In this document: piece by piece, positions 18,713 to 47,115 of the stretch
Position numbering within the stretch: position 1 is the first letter of the stretch
Layout of the letters: the number at the start of each line of letters is the position of its first letter
Assembly (NCBI RefSeq): GCF_902506145.1
Contig: NZ_LR733519.1
Span: forward strand, 1,958,314-2,022,313
Length of the DNA stretch: 64,000 nucleotides
Direction of reading: 5' to 3'
Origin: Burkholderia sp. 8Y
GTDB taxonomy: Bacteria > Pseudomonadota > Gammaproteobacteria > Burkholderiales > Burkholderiaceae
Program-made: the position numbers and the translations under genes
The notes under the pieces: generated by a model
Database searches by the model: none
What the model was told of the DNA's origin: nothing
Seen by the model: the letters and a program-made list of their open reading frames with translations, nothing else

Positions 18713-19273
18713 CTGGAGTACTCCGGCGGAAGGAGACGCAATGCGCGTGGATGCTTCCATGCTGTGCCGGACTGCGTCAATTGGCATTCGCCGCGATATT
18801 GCGGATTAATGCTTAATTTTGTCTTCTCGATATTATTCGTCTGGTTATTCGGACGATTAAATCGTGTGCATTTATCACGTACGTTCAAAACCCCGGCAAA
18901 TTTGCTTGCGACAAAGAAGCTTGAACGTTACGCTTCGCTTCACCAGCGATTAACTCAATTCGCAGGTACGCGTTTCTCTCTTGCTCAGAAGTCTTGAGCA
19001 AATACAAACAGCGCCCGTCAGGGCGTGATTCTGTGGCCAGTGCATGCAGCGGGCTGATTCGACCGCATGCAAAAGCCATATACGGCAAAACTTGCGCGCA
19101 TGAGACCAGCGCCCCGAGCGAAACTCCCGTTTCGCCCGGTCTCGTGTCGTTCGCGAAGTTTGTTGATGCTCGATTCACGCAGACAAGGCATGCATGCGCA
19201 TGCCTTCGCGGAGCGTTGTGCGCGTTGAACGCATACCGCAACGAATTCTTTTAACGATAGGCGGAGTTGAGAC
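18713..19273. other. Long AT-richer intergenic region upstream of the duplicated-domain lipoprotein
   Basis: About 560 bases with lower GC than their surroundings, most marked at 18785-18960. An open frame for 62 residues begins at ATG 18809 (MLNFVFSILFVWLF) but lacks a ribosome site, so I do not call it. The region contains the palindrome at 19185-19206 and should hold the promoter of the lipoprotein gene at 19274. Confidence 0.5.
19185..19206. promoter_or_regulatory. Perfect palindrome upstream of the lipoprotein gene
   Basis: AAGGCATGC and its reverse complement flank a 4-base centre (arms 19185-19193 and 19198-19206). It lies 68 bases before the ATG at 19274 and is not followed by a T-run. 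It is a candidate operator for a dimeric regulator. Confidence 0.5.
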
Positions 19274-20542
19274 ATGGAAGGAAAATATACGCATTGGATT
19301 GGCGCAGTCGCTTCGGCAGCCGCGTTGGTTTTACTCGCCAGTTGCGGCGGCGGTGGCGGCGGAACCAGTTCGAACGGCGCAGGCTCGACGACAACGACGG
19401 ACACGGGCGCGAGTTCGCCATCGGGCGCGAGTTCGCCGAGCGGCGCGAGTTCGCCATCGGGCGCGAGTGCGCCGAGCGGCGCGAGCTCGACCGGTTCGAC
19501 GACCGTCACGCCGACCCTCGCCGCAGCGACGCAAGTCGTCGACGGCACGGCGCTGGGGACGGCGCAGTGGGCGAGCGGCTCGACGGCGAGCGGCGGCACG
19601 GGCCAGCCGATCAGCGGCCTGAACTGCGCGGTCGCGGGCAACACGTACAGCTACTCGCATCTGTCCATCTATCAGAACGGCAAACTGCTTGCGCTGCCCG
19701 CGAACATCGGCACCGTCGCGCCGACCATGGCGCTGCAGACGGGCTGCGTGTATCCGGTGCATACCGATGACAACACAGGCAAGATCCGCATGGACGTGAC
19801 GAGCAACGCCTCGTACACGCTCGGCCAGTTCTTCTCGGTGTGGGGTCAGCCGCTTTCGGCGACGAACGTGGCGGGCATTACGGGCGCGGTCACGGCATGG
19901 GTGAACACGGGCGGCACGCTCACGCAATACACGGGCGATCTCGCGAGTCTCGTCTTGCCCCAGCACGGCGAAGTGACGCTCGCCATCGGCACGCCGCCCG
20001 CGCAGATTGCGACCTACACGTGGATCGATCCGCCGGCGTTCAACACCAACCCGGTCACGCTGGTCTATGGCGGAGTCGTCGGTACGACGGCTGCCTGGCC
20101 GACGGGCGGCACCGCGACGGGCTCGACGATCGACGGCATCATCTGCGCGGCGGGGATGGCCGAGACCTTCCACGTGCATGCGCATGTCGCGATCTTCAAG
20201 GACGGCCAATGGCTCCAGTTTCCGCAGCAGATCGGCATTCCGGGAAGCTGTAACTACGAGATGCACACGCACGATCAGACCGGCATCATCCATATCGAAA
20301 CGCCGAACCTGAAGACCTATACGCTCGGGCAGTTCTTCGATATCTGGGGCCAGCCGCTCACGACGACCAACGTCGCGGGCAACACGGGCAACGTCGTGGT
20401 GTATATCAACGACAACGGCGACTCGCGGCGTTATCTCGGCGATCCGCGCGATATCGTGCTGACTTCGCATCGCGATATCACCTTCCAGATCGGCTCGCCG
20501 ATTAGCTCGCTCGCCACGTACTCGTGGTATGAGCCGAAGTAA
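19274..20542 (+). CDS. Lipoprotein with two tandem copies of a His-rich beta domain
   Basis: A 422-residue exported lipoprotein. The lipobox LLASC places the modified Cys at residue 24. A Gly tract and a Ser/Gly/Ala-Pro linker with 18-base DNA repeats (residues about 45-70) follow. Two homologous domains occupy roughly residues 115-250 and 285-420; both contain YTLGQFF(S/D)(V/I)WGQPL and end in a TYxW motif. The second keeps a potential metal site, FHVHAHVAIF plus MHTHDQTGIIHIE. The first has lost most histidines (SYSHLSIY and VHTDDNTGKIRMD). The ATG has a GGAG site seven bases upstream. I know similar H-H/THD domains only as uncharacterised proteins. Confidence 0.82.
   Translation: MEGKYTHWIGAVASAAALVLLASCGGGGGGTSSNGAGSTTTTDTGASSPSGASSPSGASSPSGASAPSGASSTGSTTVTPTLAAATQVVDGTALGTAQWASGSTASGGTGQPISGLNCAVAGNTYSYSHLSIYQNGKLLALPANIGTVAPTMALQTGCVYPVHTDDNTGKIRMDVTSNASYTLGQFFSVWGQPLSATNVAGITGAVTAWVNTGGTLTQYTGDLASLVLPQHGEVTLAIGTPPAQIATYTWIDPPAFNTNPVTLVYGGVVGTTAAWPTGGTATGSTIDGIICAAGMAETFHVHAHVAIFKDGQWLQFPQQIGIPGSCNYEMHTHDQTGIIHIETPNLKTYTLGQFFDIWGQPLTTTNVAGNTGNVVVYINDNGDSRRYLGDPRDIVLTSHRDITFQIGSPISSLATYSWYEPK
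19406..19485 (+). repeat. Tandem 18-base coding repeat (about 4.5 copies)
   Basis: Units beginning GGCGCGAGTTCGCC repeat every 18 bases at 19406, 19424, 19442 and 19460, with a partial unit at 19478. They encode repeats of GASSPS in the linker after the lipid anchor. Such a repeat is prone to gain or loss of units without shifting the frame. Confidence 0.9.
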
Positions 20543-39148: not shown

Positions 39149-39177
39149 TGACTCTCAACCGCCCCTAGAATGTGGCA

Positions 39178-42100
39178 ATGACCGTCGATTTCCACACGCC
39201 CGACGACGCGCTCGCGGGTTTTCATCCCGCCGTCGTCAATTGGTTCCGCGCGCATTTCGCCGCGCCGACCGCCGCGCAGGCGCGCGCGTGGCCGCTCATT
39301 CATGCGCGCCGGTCGACGCTCGTCGCTGCGCCCACCGGCTCGGGGAAGACGCTCACCGCGTTTCTCGCCGCACTGGATGAGCTCGTCCGCGACGGCATCG
39401 CGGGCGGCGGCGTCTTGCCGGACGAGACGCGCGTTGTCTACGTGTCGCCGCTGAAGGCGCTGTCGAACGACATCCGCGTGAATCTGGAAGAGCCGCTCGC
39501 GGGCATTGCGCGCGAACTGCGCGACATGGGCGCGGCTGCGCCGGGCATCCGCGCCGCCGTGCGGACCGGCGATACCACGCAGCAGGAGCGCAACGCGGTG
39601 CGCAAGCGCCCGCCGCATATTCTCGTGACGACACCGGAATCGCTTTACGTGTTGCTTTCGTCCGATTCCGGCCGCGTGATGTTGTCAACCACGCGCACCG
39701 TGATTGTCGACGAAATACACGCGGTGGCGGGCGGTAAGCGCGGCTCGCATCTGAGCCTGAGCCTCGAACGGCTCGACGCGCTCTGCGAGGAACGCGGCGC
39801 GGCGCGGCCCGTGCGCGTCGGCCTGTCGGCGACGCAGAAGCCCATCGAACTCGTTGCCAAGTTTCTGGCCGGCGAAGGCCGGCCGTGCGAAATCGTCGAT
39901 GTCGGGCATGTCCGCGCACGCGATCTCGCGCTGGAACTGCCGCCGATGCCGCTCGAAGCGATCATGTCCAACGACATGTGGGAGCGCGTCTACGACCGGC
40001 TCGCTGAATTGTCGGCGCAGCATCGCACGACGCTCGTCTTCGTCAATACGCGGCGCATGGCCGAGCGCGCGGCGCGGCATCTCACCGACCGGCTCGGCAA
40101 GGAGGCGGTCGCGGCGCATCACGGCAGCCTCGCGCGGGAGCATCGGCTGGACGCGGAACAGCGCCTCAAGCGCGGCGAGTTGCGCGTGTTGATCGCGACC
40201 GCATCGCTGGAACTGGGCATCGATATCGGCGATGTCGATCTCGTCTGCCAACTCGGCTCGCCCGGTTCCATCGGCGCGTTCCTGCAGCGCGTCGGGCGCT
40301 CGGGCCACCACGTCGGCGGCGTGCCGAAAGGGCGGCTCTTTCCCACTTCGCGCGACGATCTGATCGAATGCGCCGCGCTGCTCGACTGCGTGCGCCGAGG
40401 CGAGCTCGACGCCCTGACCATCCCGCGCGCGCCGCTCGACGTGCTCGCGCAGCAGATCACCGCCGAAGTCGCGTGCCGCGAGTGGGGCGAGGATGCGCTG
40501 TTCGAGCGCATCCGCCGCGCGTATCCGTACGCGACGCTCGAACGCACGCGCTACGACGCCGTGCTGCGCACGCTCGCCGAAGGCTATACGGGCCGTCAGG
40601 GCGTGCGCGCGGCTTATGTGCATCGCGATGCGGTCAGCCGCACGCTGCGCGCCCGGCGCGGCGGCAAGCTCACGGCGGTCACGTCGGGCGGAGCGATTCC
40701 CGACAACGCGGATTTCGCCGTGCTGCTGGAGCCGCAAGGCTTGCAGATCGGCACGGTCAACGAGGACTTCGCCGTCGAAAGTCTCGCTGGCGATATCTTC
40801 CAGCTCGGGAATACGTCGTATCGCATCTTGCGCGTGGAAGGCGGGCGGGTGCGCGTGGAGAATGCGAACGGCCAGCCGCCGAACATTCCGTTCTGGCTCG
40901 GCGAAGCGCCGGGCCGCAGCGATGAGCTTTCGTTCGCGATTTCGCGTCTGCGCGCGGACGTCGATGCGCGGCTTGCATCGGGCGACGGCAAGGGTCGTAT
41001 GCATGCCGCATCCAATATGCCGAATGCAATAGACCAAACGTCGCCCGTCGATCTCACCGTCCGCTGGCTCGCCGACGAAACGGGCATCGGCATGGAAGCG
41101 GCGCGGCAGATCGTCGATTATCTGGCTCGCGCGCGCGCCGCGCTCTCGGTTCTGCCGACGCAGGACACGCTCGTCATGGAGCGATTCTTCGACGAATCCG
41201 GCGGCATGCAACTCGTCATTCACGCGCCGTTCGGCAGCCGAGTGAACCGGGCGTGGGGCTTGGCGTTGCGTAAGCGGTTTTGTCGCAAGTTCAATTTCGA
41301 GCTTCAGGCGGCGGCAACCGAAGATGCGATCGTGCTGTCGCTGACTGGCGGCCACAGCTTCGCGCTCGACGACGTATGGCGTTATCTGAAATCCGCCACC
41401 GCCGAGCACGTGCTGGTTCAGGCGCTGCTCGACGCGCCGCTGTTCGGCGTGCGCTGGCGCTGGAATGCGACCAACGCGCTCGCGCTGCCGCGTTATGCGG
41501 GCGGGCGCAAGGTCGCGCCGCAGTTGCAGCGCATGAAGAGCGAGGATCTGCTCGCGGCCGTGTTTCCGGATCAGGTCGCGTGCGCCGAGAATGTCGTCGG
41601 CGAGCGCGACGTGCCGGCGCATCCGCTCGTCGAGCAGACCATCGACGATTGCCTGCACGACGCGATGGACAGCGAGGCGTGGCTCGCGCTGCTGCGACGC
41701 ATCGAAGCGGGCGACGTGCGGCTCATCACGCGTGATTTGCCTGCGCCGTCGCCGCTCGCCGCCGAAATTCTGTCGGCGCGGCCATACGCGTTCCTCGACG
41801 ACGCCCCGCTCGAAGAACGCCGCACGCAGGCCGTGCTGGCGCGCCGCTGGACAGACCCGCGATCGACAGACGATCTTGGCGCGCTCGATGCCGACGCCAT
41901 CGCGAGCGTGCGCGCAGAAGCGTGGCCCACGGTGACGAGCGCCGATGAGATGCACGAGGCGCTGACGAGCCTCGCCGGGGTGACGGACGCCGAAGCCGCC
42001 GCGAGCGATGGCTGGCCCGCGTGGCTCGACGTCCTCGCCCGCGCTGGCCGCGCGACGCGCCTGCAGATCGCCGAGCATGACGGCTTGTGGACGCCCGTCG

Positions 42101-43608
42101 AGCGCCTGACTTTGCTGCGGGCCGTCTATAACCGCGCGCCGATGCATCCGCGCCTCACGCCGCCGCCCGGCTTCGACACGGCCTGGGACGCCGACGACGC
42201 GCTCGTCGAAATCGTGCGTGCACGGCTCTCGGGCTTCGGGCCGCTGACCTTGGCGGACGTCGCGCGGCCGCTGGCGTTGTCGGCGTCGTCGGTCGCGGTC
42301 GCGTTGACGCGCCTCGAATCCGAAGGTTATGTGATGCGCGGCCAGTTCACGCCGGACGCATCCGCTGAATCCGGCGTCGATGAACAGTGGTGCGAGCGCC
42401 ATCTGCTGGCGCGGATTCATCGCTACACGGTGCGGCGGCTGCGTCGAGAAATCGAGCCGGTGGAGCGGCAGGACTTCATGCGTTTCCTGTTCGAATGGCA
42501 GCGCGTCGCGCCGGATGCCCGCGGCGAGGGCCGCGACGCGCTGCTTGCCGTTCTCGAACAACTGGAGGGTTTCGAAGCGCCCGCCGTCGCGTGGGAGGAC
42601 GAGATTCTTCCGGCACGCATCGCTGATTACTCCGGCATCTGGCTGGACGAAATCTGCCGCGCCGGAAAGATCGTGTGGTCGCGCCCGGCGGGGCGATCGC
42701 GCGCCGCGGGCGGTCCGGTGCGCGGCACGCCCATCGTGCTGCTGCCACGCCGCGCGCTCGCGGCGTGGAATGCGCTGATGCGTCCGGACGAAGCGCCGGA
42801 GCTGTCGTCGCGTGCGCAACGCGTCTTCGATGCGCTCTCGACGCACGGCGCGATGTTCTTCGACGAATTGCTTGCCGAAACACGCCTGTTGCGCACCGAA
42901 CTGGAAGACGCGCTCGGCGAACTGGTCGCGCTCGGCCTCGTGAACGCCGACAGCTTCGCCGGGCTGCGCGCCTTGCTGACGCCCGCCGCCAAACGCAACG
43001 CGATGTCACGGCGCACGCGCAGGCCGGGCGGCGGACTCTTCATCGGCGGAATGGACGACGCGGGCCGCTGGGCGTTGCTGCATCGCGCAGGCCCCGGCCA
43101 CGAAGGCGGCGATGCCGAGCATGTCGCGCTGACGCTCCTGCGCCGGTATGGCGTCGTGTTCTGGCGGCTGCTCGAGCGCGAGGCGCAATGGCTGCCGCCG
43201 TGGCGCGACCTGCTGCGCGTCTATCACCGGCTGGAGGCGCGCGGCGAGATTCGCGGCGGGCGTTTCGTCGCGGGACTCGCGGGCGAGCAGTTCGCGCTGC
43301 CCGACGCCGTGCCGCTCCTGCGCGAAGTGCGCAGGCGGCCAAAGGACGGCGCATTCGTCGCGTTGAGCGCAGTGGATCCGCTGAACCTCGTCGGTACCTT
43401 GCTCCCGGGCGGCAAAGTGCCGGCGCTGGCGGGCAACCGCGTGCTGTATCGGGACGGCGTGCCCGCCGGCGCGGTGATCGCGGGCAAGACGCATTATTTC
43501 GGCGATGCCGACGCGCCGACGCGCGAGCGCATGCGTCTTGCCCTCGTCAAACGAAACGCGCGTTCCTTGAGCGCGTCGGCCGCGCGCCAGGTGGCGGTTC
43601 CCGACTGA
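39178..43608 (+). CDS. lhr: Large helicase-related protein Lhr (ATP-dependent DNA helicase)
   Basis: A 1476-residue superfamily 2 helicase of the long Lhr type. The core has motif [13 protein letters not shown] near residue 51, motif II VDEIHAV near 176, [35 protein letters not shown] and the arginine-finger motif QRVGRSGH. An Lhr winged-helix/beta-barrel region and the long C-terminal extension (DUF1998-unlike, Lhr-CTD) follow. Lhr is a 3-5 prime DNA translocase linked to DNA repair. A short segment near residue 604-616 ([13 protein letters not shown]) looks like an in-frame insertion. The ATG at 39178 is chosen over an upstream GTG. Confidence 0.96.
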
Positions 43609-43824
43609 CTACTTCGACACGAGCTTGTGGACGAACGGCCCCGGCTGTTGCACCGGCACGTCCTTCACCGGCACGCCGGGGTAATCGACCACGCGCTGCG
43701 GGTTTGCATGCAGAATGCGAAACGACGGACGCACGCGCTCGCGCGAGCCGCCGGCGATGCTGGCCATCGCTTGCCGGTCCAGCTCGACACTGTCGGCCAG
43801 ATCCCTGATCTTGATGACAGCCAT
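43609..43824 (-). CDS. Gly-Gly leader small protein, paralogue 3
   Basis: A 71-residue protein. Residues 1-26 are a leader with IRDLADSVELDRQAMASIAGG, nearly the same as in two upstream genes; the double Gly is at residues 25-26. The remainder (about 45 residues) is Pro/Val-rich, basic and unrelated to the others, and part of it (FRILHANP) is encoded by the dispersed repeat. The ATG at 43824 has a perfect AGGAGG site. The stop is directly adjacent to the convergent lhr stop. A terminator separates it from the other two genes. Confidence 0.72.
   Translation of the reverse strand: MAVIKIRDLADSVELDRQAMASIAGGSRERVRPSFRILHANPQRVVDYPGVPVKDVPVQQPGPFVHKLVSK
43706..43724 (+). repeat. Dispersed repeat, partial copy 3 inside a coding region
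   Basis: GCATGCAGAATGCGAAACG matches 18 of 19 bases of the core of the copies at 33961-33982 and 39127-39148. Here it lies within the small gene on the minus strand and encodes part of its C-terminal region. Confidence 0.65.
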
Positions 43825-43912
43825 GACTGTCCTCCTGGTTGAGCGCCGCGTCTCGTTCAGTATAGGAAGCAAACGAGCACGCGGTCGTGTCTAACGAAAA
43901 GCCACGAAAGCC

Positions 43913-43955
43913 AAAAAAGCCGACAGGCGGCGAAAGGCCGAAGCCTTTCGCCGCC
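43913..43955 (-). terminator. Rho-independent terminator of the Gly-Gly leader gene pair
   Basis: On the minus strand a 12-base stem (43944-43955 with 43926-43937) and a 6-base loop are followed, after a short GC-rich spacer, by six T (43913-43918). It lies 41 bases after the stop at 43997. Confidence 0.75.
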
Positions 43956-43996
43956 CACGCTCTCAGGCGCTTATCGTTTCCGATGCTCGTCGCAGA

Positions 43997-44263
43997 TCAG
44001 AACAGTGCGGCGGCGGCGTTCAGATGCGCCATCTGCTGCGGTTTCACGTAGATGGACGGCGCGGCGAAATTCGCCCCGATGACGCCGACATCATTCAGCG
44101 TGTTGACCTGCACGTTCTGCAACTGCGAGATGTTCTGCAGGATGCCGACGTTCACGTTGACATTCGCATACGGACCGTAGCCTTGCCCGCCGGAAACGGC
44201 GGACATTGCGCGGCGGTCCAGTTCCTTGCTATGGGACAAGTCCCGGACGACGATGGACGACAT
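43997..44263 (-). CDS. Gly-Gly leader small protein, paralogue 2 (N/V-rich)
   Basis: An 88-residue protein. Leader residues 1-26 contain VRDLSHSKELDRRAMSAVSGG with Gly-Gly at 25-26. The mature part is poor in charge and rich in Asn, Val and Gln (YANVNVNVGILQNISQLQNV), suggesting beta-rich or amyloid-like structure. The ATG has GAGGAG nine bases upstream. It lies 30 bases after paralogue 1 in the same direction and before a terminator. The leader resembles Gly-Gly secretion leaders, but no peptidase-transporter is in the window. Function unknown. Confidence 0.8.
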   Translation of the reverse strand: MSSIVVRDLSHSKELDRRAMSAVSGGQGYGPYANVNVNVGILQNISQLQNVQVNTLNDVGVIGANFAAPSIYVKPQQMAHLNAAAALF

Positions 44264-44293
44264 GATGGTGCTCCTCGCGAAGGGAATCGTAGG

Positions 44294-44584
44294 TCAGGCG
44301 TACAGCATGCCGAGACCGCCGCCGATATTGATGTTGCTGGAGTTGCTGCCTTTCTGGACCGGATGGAGGTCCGAATGAATGCCGCTCGCGAAGGCGACGT
44401 TCACGCCGTTCTGGTTAGACGTGTTCTGCTCTTGTTGCACCATTTGCTGCGTGTTGAACGAGAGCGACGTCTTCGAGAAGTCGAAGCTCGGCAGCAGATA
44501 GCCCATGCCGCCTCGCACGGCGGACATCGCGCGGCGATCGAGTTCTTCAGTGATGGGCAGGTCTTTGATGGTCAGCGTCTTCAT
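44294..44584 (-). CDS. Gly-Gly leader small protein, paralogue 1 (N/Q-rich)
   Basis: A 96-residue protein. Leader residues 1-26 read IKDLPITEELDRRAMSAVRG plus G, with Gly-Gly at 25-26. The rest is rich in Gln, Asn, Ser and Gly (FNTQQMVQQEQNTSNQNGVN, then SNSSNINIGGGLG). It has no cysteine and no membrane segment. The ATG is preceded by AAGGAG. It is first of a tandem pair and divergent from the Ser/Thr kinase gene. The leader is conserved among the three paralogues while the C-terminal parts differ, the usual pattern of exported peptides. Confidence 0.8.
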   Translation of the reverse strand: MKTLTIKDLPITEELDRRAMSAVRGGMGYLLPSFDFSKTSLSFNTQQMVQQEQNTSNQNGVNVAFASGIHSDLHPVQKGSNSSNINIGGGLGMLYA

Positions 44585-44976
44585 AGCGGTTCTCCTTGGG
44601 TGCGCGTGGCGCGTTCAGGTAAGGGTTCGAGCAACATGTCTGCTCGGGCCAGTTCAATGCATAGGGTGTGCCAAGCGGCATGAGCCGCGCCCGAAACCAT
44701 CGCAAAGCCCTTTATTCATGGGCTTTTCCGACATCGCGCTTCGCTTGCGCCGACAGCATCGGTCATCGCGGCGGCGCCCGAATGCCGCGTCGAATCCAAC
44801 AGCGCGCTGAATTGTGTCGGTCTGCGAAAGACATGTGCGCGATGCCGCGCATCCGATAAAACGCCATTTGCTTAAGCCCGATACGAAGGCTAGTATCGAA
44901 CGATCAACCGGCGTTTGTTACGACAAGTAGAGTGCCGGCCGACCACGTTATTTCGGAGCCGCAACGAGTCGCACAG
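44585..44976. other. Divergent intergenic region between Gly-Gly leader genes and kinase
   Basis: About 390 bases without a supported gene. It holds the kinase promoter proposed at 44868-44896 and should hold the leftward promoter of the leader-peptide genes, which I cannot place. Confidence 0.5.
44868..44896 (+). promoter_or_regulatory. Candidate promoter of the Ser/Thr kinase gene with a dyad
   Basis: TTGCTT (44868-44873), a 17-base spacer and TAGTAT (44891-44896) lie about 80 bases before the ATG. A small dyad, CGATAC (44879-44884) and GTATCG (44893-44898), overlaps spacer and -10 and could be an operator. Confidence 0.5.
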
Positions 44977-47115
44977 ATGACTAGCTTTCAAGAATCGCTT
45001 CGTGCATACCGGGGCGAAGGCGGGTCGCGCGACGCGTTCTTTGCGGGGGTCGACGGCGCATTGGCCGCCGAGCGCAGCCCGCCCGCGCGGCTCATGCAGA
45101 TCCTCGACGAGGCGCATGCGGCAAGTCCGCTGCCGCCCGATATCTATGCAGCCATCCGCCGCCGCATCGAACATGCGGCGCGCACGCGTTTCGACGGCGA
45201 ACCCGGCACCGCATTCGAGCCGGGCCGCGACGAAACCCGTATGCGCGCCGCGCCGGACTTTCCGCCGCCCTTGCCGCCTCGCGTGACGAATACGCCGAGC
45301 GCGGGCAGCGACCCGAGCGGCGCCACTTCCGGCCAGGCGACGCAAGTGCTCGCGGACACCGATCAGGTCAAGGGCGTCGGCGACACGCTCAATAACCGCT
45401 TCGTGCTCGAAGAATGTCTCGGTATCGGCGGCATGGGGACCGTCTACAAGGCGCTCGATCTGCGCAAGCTGGAGGCGTCGGACAGGCGTCCGTATGTCGC
45501 CATCAAAGTGCTGAATCTGCAGTTTCGCGGCAACCCGAAGTCGCTGATTGCGCTGCAACGCGAGGCACGCAAGGCGCAGCAGCTTGCGCACCGCAATATC
45601 GTCACCGTGTACGACTTCGATCGCGACAACTCCGTCGTCTACCTGACGATGGAGTATCTTTCGGGGCAACCGCTTTCGAAGATACTTCGGACACCGAACT
45701 TCAAGGGGATGCCGTTCGCGCAGGTCTTTCCGCTATTCAAAGGGATGGCGACCGCGCTTGCCTACGCGCACGAGCGCGGCTTCGTGCATTGCGACTTCAA
45801 GCCGGCGAACGTGTTCGTGACCGATGCATCGGAAGTAAAGGTCATCGACTTCGGCATTGCTCGCGTGATTCAACGCCCGGAAGAAGAAAGCGAGGCCACG
45901 GTCTTCGATCCGGGCAGCCTCGGCGCGCTGACTCCCGCGTATGCAAGCCCGGAGATGCTCGAACATCGCGAGCCCGACCCGCGCGACGATATCTATGCGC
46001 TCGCATGCATCACGTATGAACTATTGACCGGTAAGCATCCGTTCGACCGCGTTCCGGCGACGCAGGCGAAAAGCGCGGGCATGAAACCGCAGCGTCCGGA
46101 ACAACTCGGCAACAAGCAATGGAAGGCGCTGAAGGCGGCGCTCGCTTTCGAGCGCGAAGCGCGCACGCCGACAGTCGCGCAGTTTCTCGATGAGATCAGC
46201 GAGGAATCGCCGCCCGCGCCCAAGCAGTCAAAGAAGTTTCGGGCAGGCGTGCCGAGTGTCGCGGTCGGCGCGCTGGCGCTCGTCATCATTGCGAGCGCGG
46301 CGTATTACGTCGTCGCGCACAAGAAGAGCGGCAATGCGCCGACCGCCGTTGCAGTCGCCCCGGCGCTTCCAACGCCAACCCCGATGCCGACGCCGGAAAA
46401 GCCCGCGATCACCCCCGCTGTCCCCGCCGCCCCCGCGCCGACGCTCACGATGGCCGCCGTCACGCCGGTGCTTGGGAGCGTGCCGTGTTCGGCGCTCGTT
46501 GCTTCGGTCCACGATCAGACTGTCGATGTGCAGGGCTTCGTGTCGCAGCAATACGGCCTTACTCGCCTCAAGGACGCGCTCGGGCGCGTGCCGGGCGTCA
46601 AGACGACGAACTTCGGCGTCCAGACCGTCGCCGATGACAAGTGCGATCTGCTCACGGTGCTCGGGCCCTACTGGACGACGAACAGGCAGTCGGGCCGGCC
46701 CGCATCGGTGCATACGCGTTCGAACCAGACGCGCCTCACCGAAGGCGATCCGCTGATCGTCGAGCTGATGACGCCCGCCTTCGATTCATACGTGACTGTC
46801 GATTACTTCATGCTCGACGGCAGCGTGGTGCATCTGCTGCCGAACGCGCATTCTCGCGACAATCAGGCGCCGCCCGGCTATACCGCGACGCTCGGCACGA
46901 TGGGCGACTGGGTCGTCGGCAAGCCCTTCGGCTCGGAGATGATCGTGCTGACCGTCACGCCCGCGCCGCTCTTCGACGCGTTGCGCCCCGACAGCGAAGC
47001 GAAGTCCGAATATCTGCGCGAGATCGATAAACGGCTCGCCGCGCTCGCCGCCCGTTACGGACGCGAGCGCGTGGCCGTCGATATCGTTCAGATCACGACG
47101 CAGCCGAAGAAGTGA
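44977..47115 (+). CDS. Membrane-anchored Ser/Thr protein kinase with DUF4384-like sensor domain
   Basis: A 712-residue Hanks-type kinase. Order: a helical N-terminal region with a Pro-rich linker (1-135); kinase domain about 140-400 with the glycine loop GIGGMGTVYKA, AIKVL lysine, catalytic HCDFKPAN near 269 (Cys replaces the usual Arg, so activation-loop control may be absent) and DFG near 290; one membrane segment about 421-443 (VAVGALALVIIASAAYYVVA); a Pro/Ala/Thr linker; an outside segment with PCSALVASVHDQTVDVQGFV; and a C-terminal DUF4384-like domain (FDSYVTVDYFMLDGSVVHLL). It is divergent from the Gly-Gly leader genes. Targets are unknown. Confidence 0.9.
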   Translation: MTSFQESLRAYRGEGGSRDAFFAGVDGALAAERSPPARLMQILDEAHAASPLPPDIYAAIRRRIEHAARTRFDGEPGTAFEPGRDETRMRAAPDFPPPLPPRVTNTPSAGSDPSGATSGQATQVLADTDQVKGVGDTLNNRFVLEECLGIGGMGTVYKALDLRKLEASDRRPYVAIKVLNLQFRGNPKSLIALQREARKAQQLAHRNIVTVYDFDRDNSVVYLTMEYLSGQPLSKILRTPNFKGMPFAQVFPLFKGMATALAYAHERGFVHCDFKPANVFVTDASEVKVIDFGIARVIQRPEEESEATVFDPGSLGALTPAYASPEMLEHREPDPRDDIYALACITYELLTGKHPFDRVPATQAKSAGMKPQRPEQLGNKQWKALKAALAFEREARTPTVAQFLDEISEESPPAPKQSKKFRAGVPSVAVGALALVIIASAAYYVVAHKKSGNAPTAVAVAPALPTPTPMPTPEKPAITPAVPAAPAPTLTMAAVTPVLGSVPCSALVASVHDQTVDVQGFVSQQYGLTRLKDALGRVPGVKTTNFGVQTVADDKCDLLTVLGPYWTTNRQSGRPASVHTRSNQTRLTEGDPLIVELMTPAFDSYVTVDYFMLDGSVVHLLPNAHSRDNQAPPGYTATLGTMGDWVVGKPFGSEMIVLTVTPAPLFDALRPDSEAKSEYLREIDKRLAALAARYGRERVAVDIVQITTQPKK

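Follow-up and report, generated by a model that had tools for sequence, protein, structure and literature searches.

A predicted type I secretion system for several families of Asn/Gln-rich Gly-Gly-leader peptides, with candidate sigma-54 and phosphorylation control, in Burkholderia sp. 8Y and its relatives

In peptidase-containing ATP-binding cassette transporters (PCATs; solved bacteriocin examples such as 4ry2, and ComA), a C39 peptidase that keeps its catalytic residues is fused to an ATP-binding cassette (ABC) exporter, and the cargo carries a short leader that ends in Gly-Gly. In HetC of Nostoc, a cyclic nucleotide monophosphate (cNMP) domain precedes C39 and ABC; the N-terminal part of HetC binds ppGpp, and in the available portion of the account neither a membrane-fusion gene nor a Gly-Gly cargo gene was found in its vicinity (PMC10986499). 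The Cdz system of Caulobacter (CdzABCDI) sends out small bacteriocin-like proteins by type I export and retains them on the surface (from the part available of PMC5380434). In the Fap system of Pseudomonas, Asn/Gln-rich subunits depend on a C39 peptidase, FapD (PMC5557850, in part), and in Faecalibacterium duncaniae a structural cargo with a Gly-Gly leader, MAM, an envelope component with a surface lattice, has been assigned to a PCAT (PMC12184118, in part). Here we compare with these systems three small genes, p1, p2 and p3, in a 64-kb stretch of Burkholderia sp. 8Y DNA (the window, C5:1958314-2022313 within a 6.28-Mb assembly), and a gene island about 1 Mb away that encodes their candidate exporter. 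We consider it probable that they belong to a phosphorylation-gated, sigma-54-controlled type I system that exports several Asn/Gln-rich peptide families, probably structural ones.

The candidate exporter resembles the PCATs in its C39-ABC fusion, its catalytic residues and its cargo with a short Gly-Gly leader. Unlike them, it has two N-terminal cNMP domains and several cargo families per genome, and a peptidyl-prolyl isomerase (PPIase), an FHA protein, a PP2C phosphatase, a Ser/Thr kinase and a sigma-54 activator belong to the island. The likeness to HetC is one of description; in contrast to what the available text says of HetC, the cNMP domain is doubled here and adaptor and Gly-Gly cargo genes are in the island (PMC10986499). 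Fap subunits, in the part of the source available, travel by way of Sec and FapF, with FapD in the periplasm, whereas here C39 is fused to the ABC exporter (PMC5557850). MAM concerns another organism and another cargo, and a regulatory island is not part of the MAM system in the available text (PMC12184118). A further likeness is to the threonine phosphorylation pathway of type VI secretion, with its membrane Ser/Thr kinase, PP2C and FHA proteins: PpkA, PppA and Fha work jointly there, and damage to the membrane is sensed by TagQRST (the part available of PMC10482370). Unlike in that pathway, the kinase, PP2C and FHA genes here stand in a type I secretion island; no type VI genes were among the island genes identified, and no search aimed at type VI was made.

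The earlier note on this DNA had pointed to three tandem small proteins at 43609-44584 with a 26-residue leader ending in a double Gly, and this description holds. The minus strand carries p3 (44294..44584; 96 amino acids, leader 1-26, mature part 27-96, Asn/Gln-rich), p2 (43997..44263; 88 amino acids, Gly-Gly leader, mature part of the type NVNVNVxQNIxQxQxVxVNALNN) and p1 (43609..43824; 71 amino acids, mature part basic and Pro-rich). Ribosome-binding sites are visible for p3, whose ATG is preceded by AAGGAG, and for p1, whose start is the ATG at 43824 with AGGAGG before it; the mechanical list of open reading frames (ORFs) began p1 at an upstream TTG. Each of the three proteins has its double Gly at residues 25-26, and no Cys is present in any, as had been said of the cores. 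The two cores described as N/Q/V-rich are indeed rich in Asn and Gln: these amount to 25.8% of the mature part of p2 and 21.4% of that of p3 (8.9% in p1), whereas 33 proxy genes, the long non-overlapping ORFs of the window, average 5.6% and do not exceed 9.1%. The leader pattern fits 3 of the 3,583 ORF start choices of the window, namely p1-p3, a count that is merely descriptive because the pattern was drawn from p1-p3 themselves.

A hidden Markov model (HMM) of the leader, 27 columns long, was made from ten leaders, six from this genome (p1-p3 included) and four from database relatives. In the own genome it matches seven genes at E<=1.5e-6 (p2 5.1e-17, p3 2.4e-16, p1 1.6e-13) and one more weakly (E=0.26). 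Three of the seven are in the window, three flank the island at C5:947-961 kb, and one is solitary. The solitary gene (C5:266541; L024:9443-9622) encodes 59 amino acids with two Cys in the core and is unlike the other classes. Databases have little to say about such proteins. The 41 matches of p3 (two from its own genome) include no functional name among the matches listed, and p2 has 12 relatives, Aromatoleum among the sources; the matches of both are unnamed, 'hypothetical' or 'uncharacterized', except for one 'type VI component' (p2) and one 'status=active' (p3). NCBIfam gave p1-p3 only matches below cut-off (TIGR04497 on p1, E=0.08; NF006387 on p2, E=0.028), and a PDB profile search with p3 gave a single weak match, to carnobacteriocin B2 (E=0.68, profile positions 12-56).

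The remark that the window lacks a peptidase-transporter is borne out: the genome encodes three C39 proteins, and none of them falls within the 64 kb. One of them is the exporter of the island (L008, C5:942000-961999). In order, the genes are those of an LRAT-domain protein, a p4-type precursor, a PP2C phosphatase, a sigma-54 activator and the ABC exporter; these are followed by a PpiC-type protein, an HlyD adaptor, an FHA protein and a NodT-type outer-membrane channel, and then by two precursors of p3 type, a pair of DUF4399 proteins and a caspase-FGE relative. Leader genes are thus found right beside the exporter (two p3-type, one p4-type). The exporter, of 1,019 amino acids, has PF00027 twice (cNMP), PF03412 (C39, 136.6 bits), PF00664 and PF00005. 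Its Gln311, Cys317, His390 and Asp406 are invariant in the 7 aligned members; we take Cys, His and Asp to be the catalytic residues and Gln the oxyanion residue of the C39 domain. The best PDB match is HlyB, in which a Tyr is aligned to the Cys. Since the C39 residues are kept, the exporter would be expected to cut its cargo and not merely dock it. With the HlyD adaptor and the channel (PF13437 and TIGR01845 matches), the island encodes the parts of a C39 type I system. The other two C39 exporters of the genome (L010, L011) were not taken for the cognate one, as leader genes are absent from the 20 kb surrounding each.

Of the remaining island proteins, the sigma-54 activator has GAFTGA and no match to a receiver domain. 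The PpiC-type PPIase has no transmembrane (TM)-like segment, and its best NCBIfam match is TIGR04500 (putative peptide maturation protein; 81.6 bits, where the cut-off is 180). The FHA protein, 837 amino acids long, has a single TM-like segment besides its two FHA domains. The Ser/Thr kinase predicted to serve the system is in the window (44932..47115, plus strand; PF00069, PF14326), divergent from p3; its TM-like segments are at 443-461 (strong) and 505-523 (weak), and DUF4384 is C-terminal.

Whether leader and exporter travel together was determined in 249 genomes of the family, at thresholds of E<=0.001 for the leader and E<=1e-130 for the N-terminal 450 residues of the exporter. Both are present in 79 genomes, the leader alone in 4, the exporter alone in none, and neither in 166. 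The leader is thus found in 83 of the genomes and in every one of the 79 with the exporter. An eightieth exporter match (G225), which covers the C39 part only at 33% identity, was not counted. One leader-only genome (G133) has a single weak match (9.6e-4). The other three are of the same genus, which is taken to be Caballeronia: in G185 the sole leader match does not open with a start codon and the kinase matches come in several pieces (L138); in G209 the kinase matches are in two frames and those of HlyD, FHA and channel are incomplete (L139, L140); and in G173 a p4 precursor is shortened (L141). In G242, which is among the 79, the exporter, FHA, PP2C, LRAT and a precursor are in pieces (L278). 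Several system genes are broken or incomplete within one genome in L278 and L138-L141, a picture of joint decay. In a search of 58 genomes of the genus for C39 domains, this exporter was the sole C39 match in 12 of the 22 same-genus genomes that have leader and exporter.

The arrangement in relatives joins what is separate in the window genome. We retrieved stretches of 19 to 20 kb for 40 of the 79 islands, together with 20 other stretches, mostly distal leader loci. All 40 islands have a leader gene (135 altogether) as well as exporter, PPIase, HlyD, FHA and channel genes; the activator is in 39, PP2C in 36, LRAT in 26 and the kinase in 25, the lower counts being due in part to genes cut off at stretch edges. 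A divergent leader gene is within 900 bp of 38 of 40 kinase 5' ends, which include three pairs from overlapping fetches (window/L013, L022/L130, L023/L095); one of the two exceptions is at the cut edge of stretch L013. The kinase block of the window with its divergent p3-p2-p1 lies inside the ~20-kb island in other genera and in two of the fetched same-genus genomes. The full set in one stretch comprises the kinase, p3-p2-p1-type and p4 genes, PP2C, the activator, the exporter genes and a second p3-type gene; such islands are many and include L095 and L096 (same genus), L100, L102 and L103 (Paraburkholderia group) and L111-L115. We conclude that in the window genome the kinase-precursor block stands about 1 Mb apart from the rest. 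The kinase, PP2C and FHA genes, the trio of type VI phosphorylation, are encoded together in relatives and over two places here.

A second view comes from 80 named loci, the best 80 of 275 relatives, many of them from the same genomes as in the 249-genome sample. They come from Caballeronia, Paraburkholderia, Burkholderia-labelled strains, Pararobbsia, Noviherbaspirillum, an Oxalobacteraceae and a Rhodocyclaceae bin. PPIase and activator genes are in all 80, leader genes in 77, HlyD, FHA and channel genes in 76, PP2C in 74 and LRAT in 70. The kinase is seen in just 1 of 80, because it lies beyond most of the stretches. Paraburkholderia xenovorans LB400, an environmental laboratory strain, also carries the island (L183). 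Together, these results support the note's reading of p1-p3 as Gly-Gly-leader precursors of a C39/ABC exporter, one that is far from the window: a leader profile search with inspection of neighbours, as it had proposed, brought up the exporter with HlyD and outer-membrane partners beside leader genes.

The cargo falls into several families. From 359 leader ORFs we obtained 317 distinct proteins, and 314 after removal of those with X or shorter than 55 amino acids. Classes were assigned by regular expression, seven proteins being reassigned by HMM, to p1 (40), p2 (31), p3 (154, a few odd orphans included) and p4 (89). Positions 25-26 are GG in 298 precursors, GA in 14 and GS in 2. Asn plus Gln account for 21.7% of the mature part in p2, 20.4% in p3 and 20.9% in p4, and for 5.8% in p1. 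The mature profiles match one another with scores of 23.7 (p2-p3), 27.4 (p2-p4) and 29.5 (p3-p4), each reached by none of 60 column shuffles, and have in common a motif of roughly A-x-Q-x-I-x-Q-x-Q-x-V, whereas p1 against p2, p3 or p4 is at shuffle level. The earlier claim of unrelated C-termini is therefore right only for p1, because the p2, p3 and p4 mature profiles match one another.

In pooled comparisons of six Caballeronia orthologues each, the ratio of nonsynonymous to synonymous differences (pN/pS, uncorrected proportions) is 0.11, 0.17 and 0.29 for the leaders of p1, p2 and p3, and 0.39, 0.59 and 0.46 for their mature parts. The mature parts can be recognised across genera and, judged from such proportions, are under purifying selection, with less constraint than on the leaders.

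Two further leader families were noted. The p5 family (L259-L264, L266, L267, L272) has about 85 amino acids and a core with APVTQVDAS; in six genomes inspected it forms arrays of up to six near-identical 85-residue tandem copies. Several p5 genes have a -24/-12 site 61-72 nt upstream, and a p5-like trio adjoins the exporter in an Oxalobacteraceae bin (L172). The p6 gene (63-64 amino acids, core HDVEKEKALVE..DPAP..MKL) is found in L268-L270 and L273 and at C19:32232 of the own genome, this copy being the weak match at E=0.26; p6 stretches are otherwise devoid of leader or island genes.

Control of the precursors is suggested by their promoters. The sigma-54 -24/-12 consensus is TGGCAC-N5-TTGC, and a predicted promoter of this kind, TGGCACACCCTATGC, lies 74 nt before the p3 ATG (44659..44673, minus strand). 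Sites were scored within 350 nt upstream, with GG-N10-GC required and at least 9 of 10 positions matching; duplicates and upstream stretches under 200 nt were excluded from the counts. Among genes that are first of their cluster, 103 of 127 p3 and 69 of 93 p4 genes have a site (shuffle means 1.75 and 1.15), and the counts are unchanged when restricted to full 350-nt stretches. Before internal precursor genes there is 1 in 83. A looser score of 8/10, a level without shuffle control, gives 126/127 for p3, 91/93 for p4 and 6/12 for p1; the site of a p3-type gene in the own island scores 8. The other genes are largely free of sites: ABC 0/42, PPIase 0/42, HlyD 0/44, FHA 1/44 and channel 3/44 for the machinery, and activator 0/40, PP2C 1/34, LRAT 0/20 and kinase 0/39 for the rest. 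In L118-L120, a -24/-12 site stands directly before the channel gene and a recognised precursor is absent; it is possibly a promoter left after precursor loss. Within the operon, the p2-p1 gap has a terminator-like hairpin with a T-run (43913..43959, minus strand; predicted -29.5 kcal/mol). Such hairpins occur in 19 of the 28 p2-p1 gaps, compared with 6 of 28 after shuffling, and in 5 of 30 p3-p2 gaps, compared with 1, and the p2-p1 hairpin likely lowers read-through into p1.

The following scheme is proposed. The sigma-54 activator of the island would turn on the precursor operons; that the precursors are under sigma-54 control is likely, given the distribution of sites. The PpiC-type protein, having no TM segment, may hold the precursors unfolded in the cytoplasm. 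The C39 peptidase/ABC exporter would then cut the leader after residue 26 and export the mature part in one step, through HlyD and then the NodT-type channel. From gene content and co-occurrence, it is very likely that p1-p3 are cargo of the island exporter, and cleavage after residue 26 is predicted with nearly the same assurance. Export would be gated through Thr phosphorylation by the window kinase, the PP2C phosphatase and the membrane FHA protein, a step that the type VI analogy makes somewhat probable. The two cNMP domains of the exporter may bind nucleotide and be a second input. Outside the cell, the low-charge, Asn/Gln-rich p2, p3 and p4 could assemble together as a polymer on the surface, to which p1 would be a basic accessory of lower abundance. 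Surface assembly is suggested by the low charge, the Asn/Gln content, the multiple conserved paralogues and the arrays, and by the analogy to Fap and MAM; we give a surface polymer an even chance. The amyloid nature of the mature parts, suggested by their composition, is a more tentative proposal. The fullest version, in which a kinase-phosphatase-FHA switch gates a cNMP-sensing C39 exporter of subunits for a functional-amyloid-like matrix in Burkholderiales, is more speculative still.

TagR carries an FGE-type domain, and by analogy the island protein that combines caspase (C14) and FGE-sulfatase domains is a possible TagR-like activator of the kinase. Relatives of this protein are in 37 of the 40 fetched islands and 73 of the 80 named loci. 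The query was from a Paraburkholderia island (L100:13529-15505); the own-genome relative (C5:961911-963752) has 53% identity to it over query residues 11-657.

Several points weigh against the scheme. Pfam has no family, curlin included, that matches p1-p3 at E<=10. AlphaFold2 gave models of low confidence (pLDDT, the predicted local distance difference test, 46.6 for p2 and 57.6 for p3) with no strands and no dependable fold, which leaves a beta-rich or amyloid structure without structural support. The TagR-like roles and phospho-gating rest on analogy. First-of-cluster p1 genes have a sigma-54 site in 4 of 12 cases (shuffle mean 0.25). The co-occurrence counts are not independent events because the genomes are related; moreover, the six genomes of the genus that lack the leader also lack any C39 match, and hence cannot separate this exporter from other C39 exporters. 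In 3 of the 80 named loci the stretch has no leader gene, and two of these (L223, L224) also have no HlyD, FHA or channel match in it. Finally, with two further C39 proteins in the own genome, redundancy of export is possible there.

An antibacterial function is a rival reading. The peptides would be class II-type bacteriocins, or contact-killing proteins of the Cdz kind, which the kinase/FHA/phosphatase gate releases on attack. The leader and the exporter class are the same as those of bacteriocins; Caulobacter CdzC and CdzD are encoded as 86- and 84-residue proteins, exported by a type I route and retained on the surface (PMC5380434, in part); and type VI secretion has a known gate of the phosphorylation type (PMC10482370, in part). 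Unlike Cdz, however, the present system has Asn/Gln-rich cores together with phosphorylation and sigma-54 genes, and glycine zippers are rare (GxxxGxxxG in just 8 of 314 mature parts), which led us to discard the glycine-zipper idea. By eye, the window block, from the kinase and the precursors to the converging ORF, holds no small immunity candidate, other islands having had no systematic search, and the conservation of cores across genera and the p5 arrays are more in keeping with a structural protein than with a toxin that diversifies. We regard an antibacterial role as unlikely.

It is improbable that the exported p1-p4 are signals reporting cell density or envelope state to the outer domain of the kinase. 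The kinase, with its apparently periplasmic DUF4384, is divergent from the peptides at 38 of 40 ends, and HetC, also a cNMP-C39-ABC exporter, has been proposed to export a regulatory peptide (PMC10986499, in part). In our judgement, however, mature parts of ~45-85 residues in many copies and families are large and numerous for a signal, and a low-charge Asn/Gln composition suits self-association. About as improbable is that the cores are ribosomally synthesized and post-translationally modified peptides (RiPPs), modified before or after export by the LRAT-domain protein, the caspase-FGE protein or another island enzyme. The frequency of LRAT and caspase-FGE genes in the named loci and the TIGR04500 match of the PPIase are in its favor; RiPP-modifying enzyme families had no match in the scanned own-island proteins, and a mature part with Cys occurs in only 18 of 314 precursors. 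That the genes encode cytoplasmic small proteins with a common N-terminal helix and no export, for which the AlphaFold2 model of p3 shows merely a low-confidence helix at residues 9-21, is most improbable in view of the 79/79 co-occurrence, the remnants where the exporter was lost, the common promoters and the adjacency.

The system of exported, probably structural peptides would join three modules known separately: C39 type I export, gating by threonine phosphorylation and control by sigma-54. The parts are known; the combination is new. It would supply a concrete cargo for the cNMP-C39 exporter class, and it places the nameless p2 and p3 database proteins in a coherent island present in 79 of the 249 sampled family genomes. 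If the matrix reading is true, extracellular fibres would have, in addition to curli and Fap, a further and new route of formation. Among the literature matches listed, titles and abstract openings hold no description of this system. A 2026 review of Burkholderia secretion covers type I systems, this one being unmentioned in the part available (PMC13391677), and a paper on Azoarcus BH72, as far as its available text goes, deals with a poor C39 match from a signalling screen (PMC3262810).

A few neighbouring features and outlying matches complete the picture. In the window, a 1,478-residue ORF (39172..43608, plus strand), helicase-like by its motifs, converges on p1. In the island, the pair of DUF4399 proteins beside the precursors (L008:18747-19223 and 19268-19705) has relatives in all 40 fetched islands and in 74 of the 80 named loci. 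Plasmid records were matched too, 4 records each, and the two such stretches that were inspected are unannotated. A search of 398 genomes of the phylum gave three family members, the own genome included, and seven distant C39 exporters (L226-L232), which have about 30% identity over most of the cNMP-C39 query and belong to other families.

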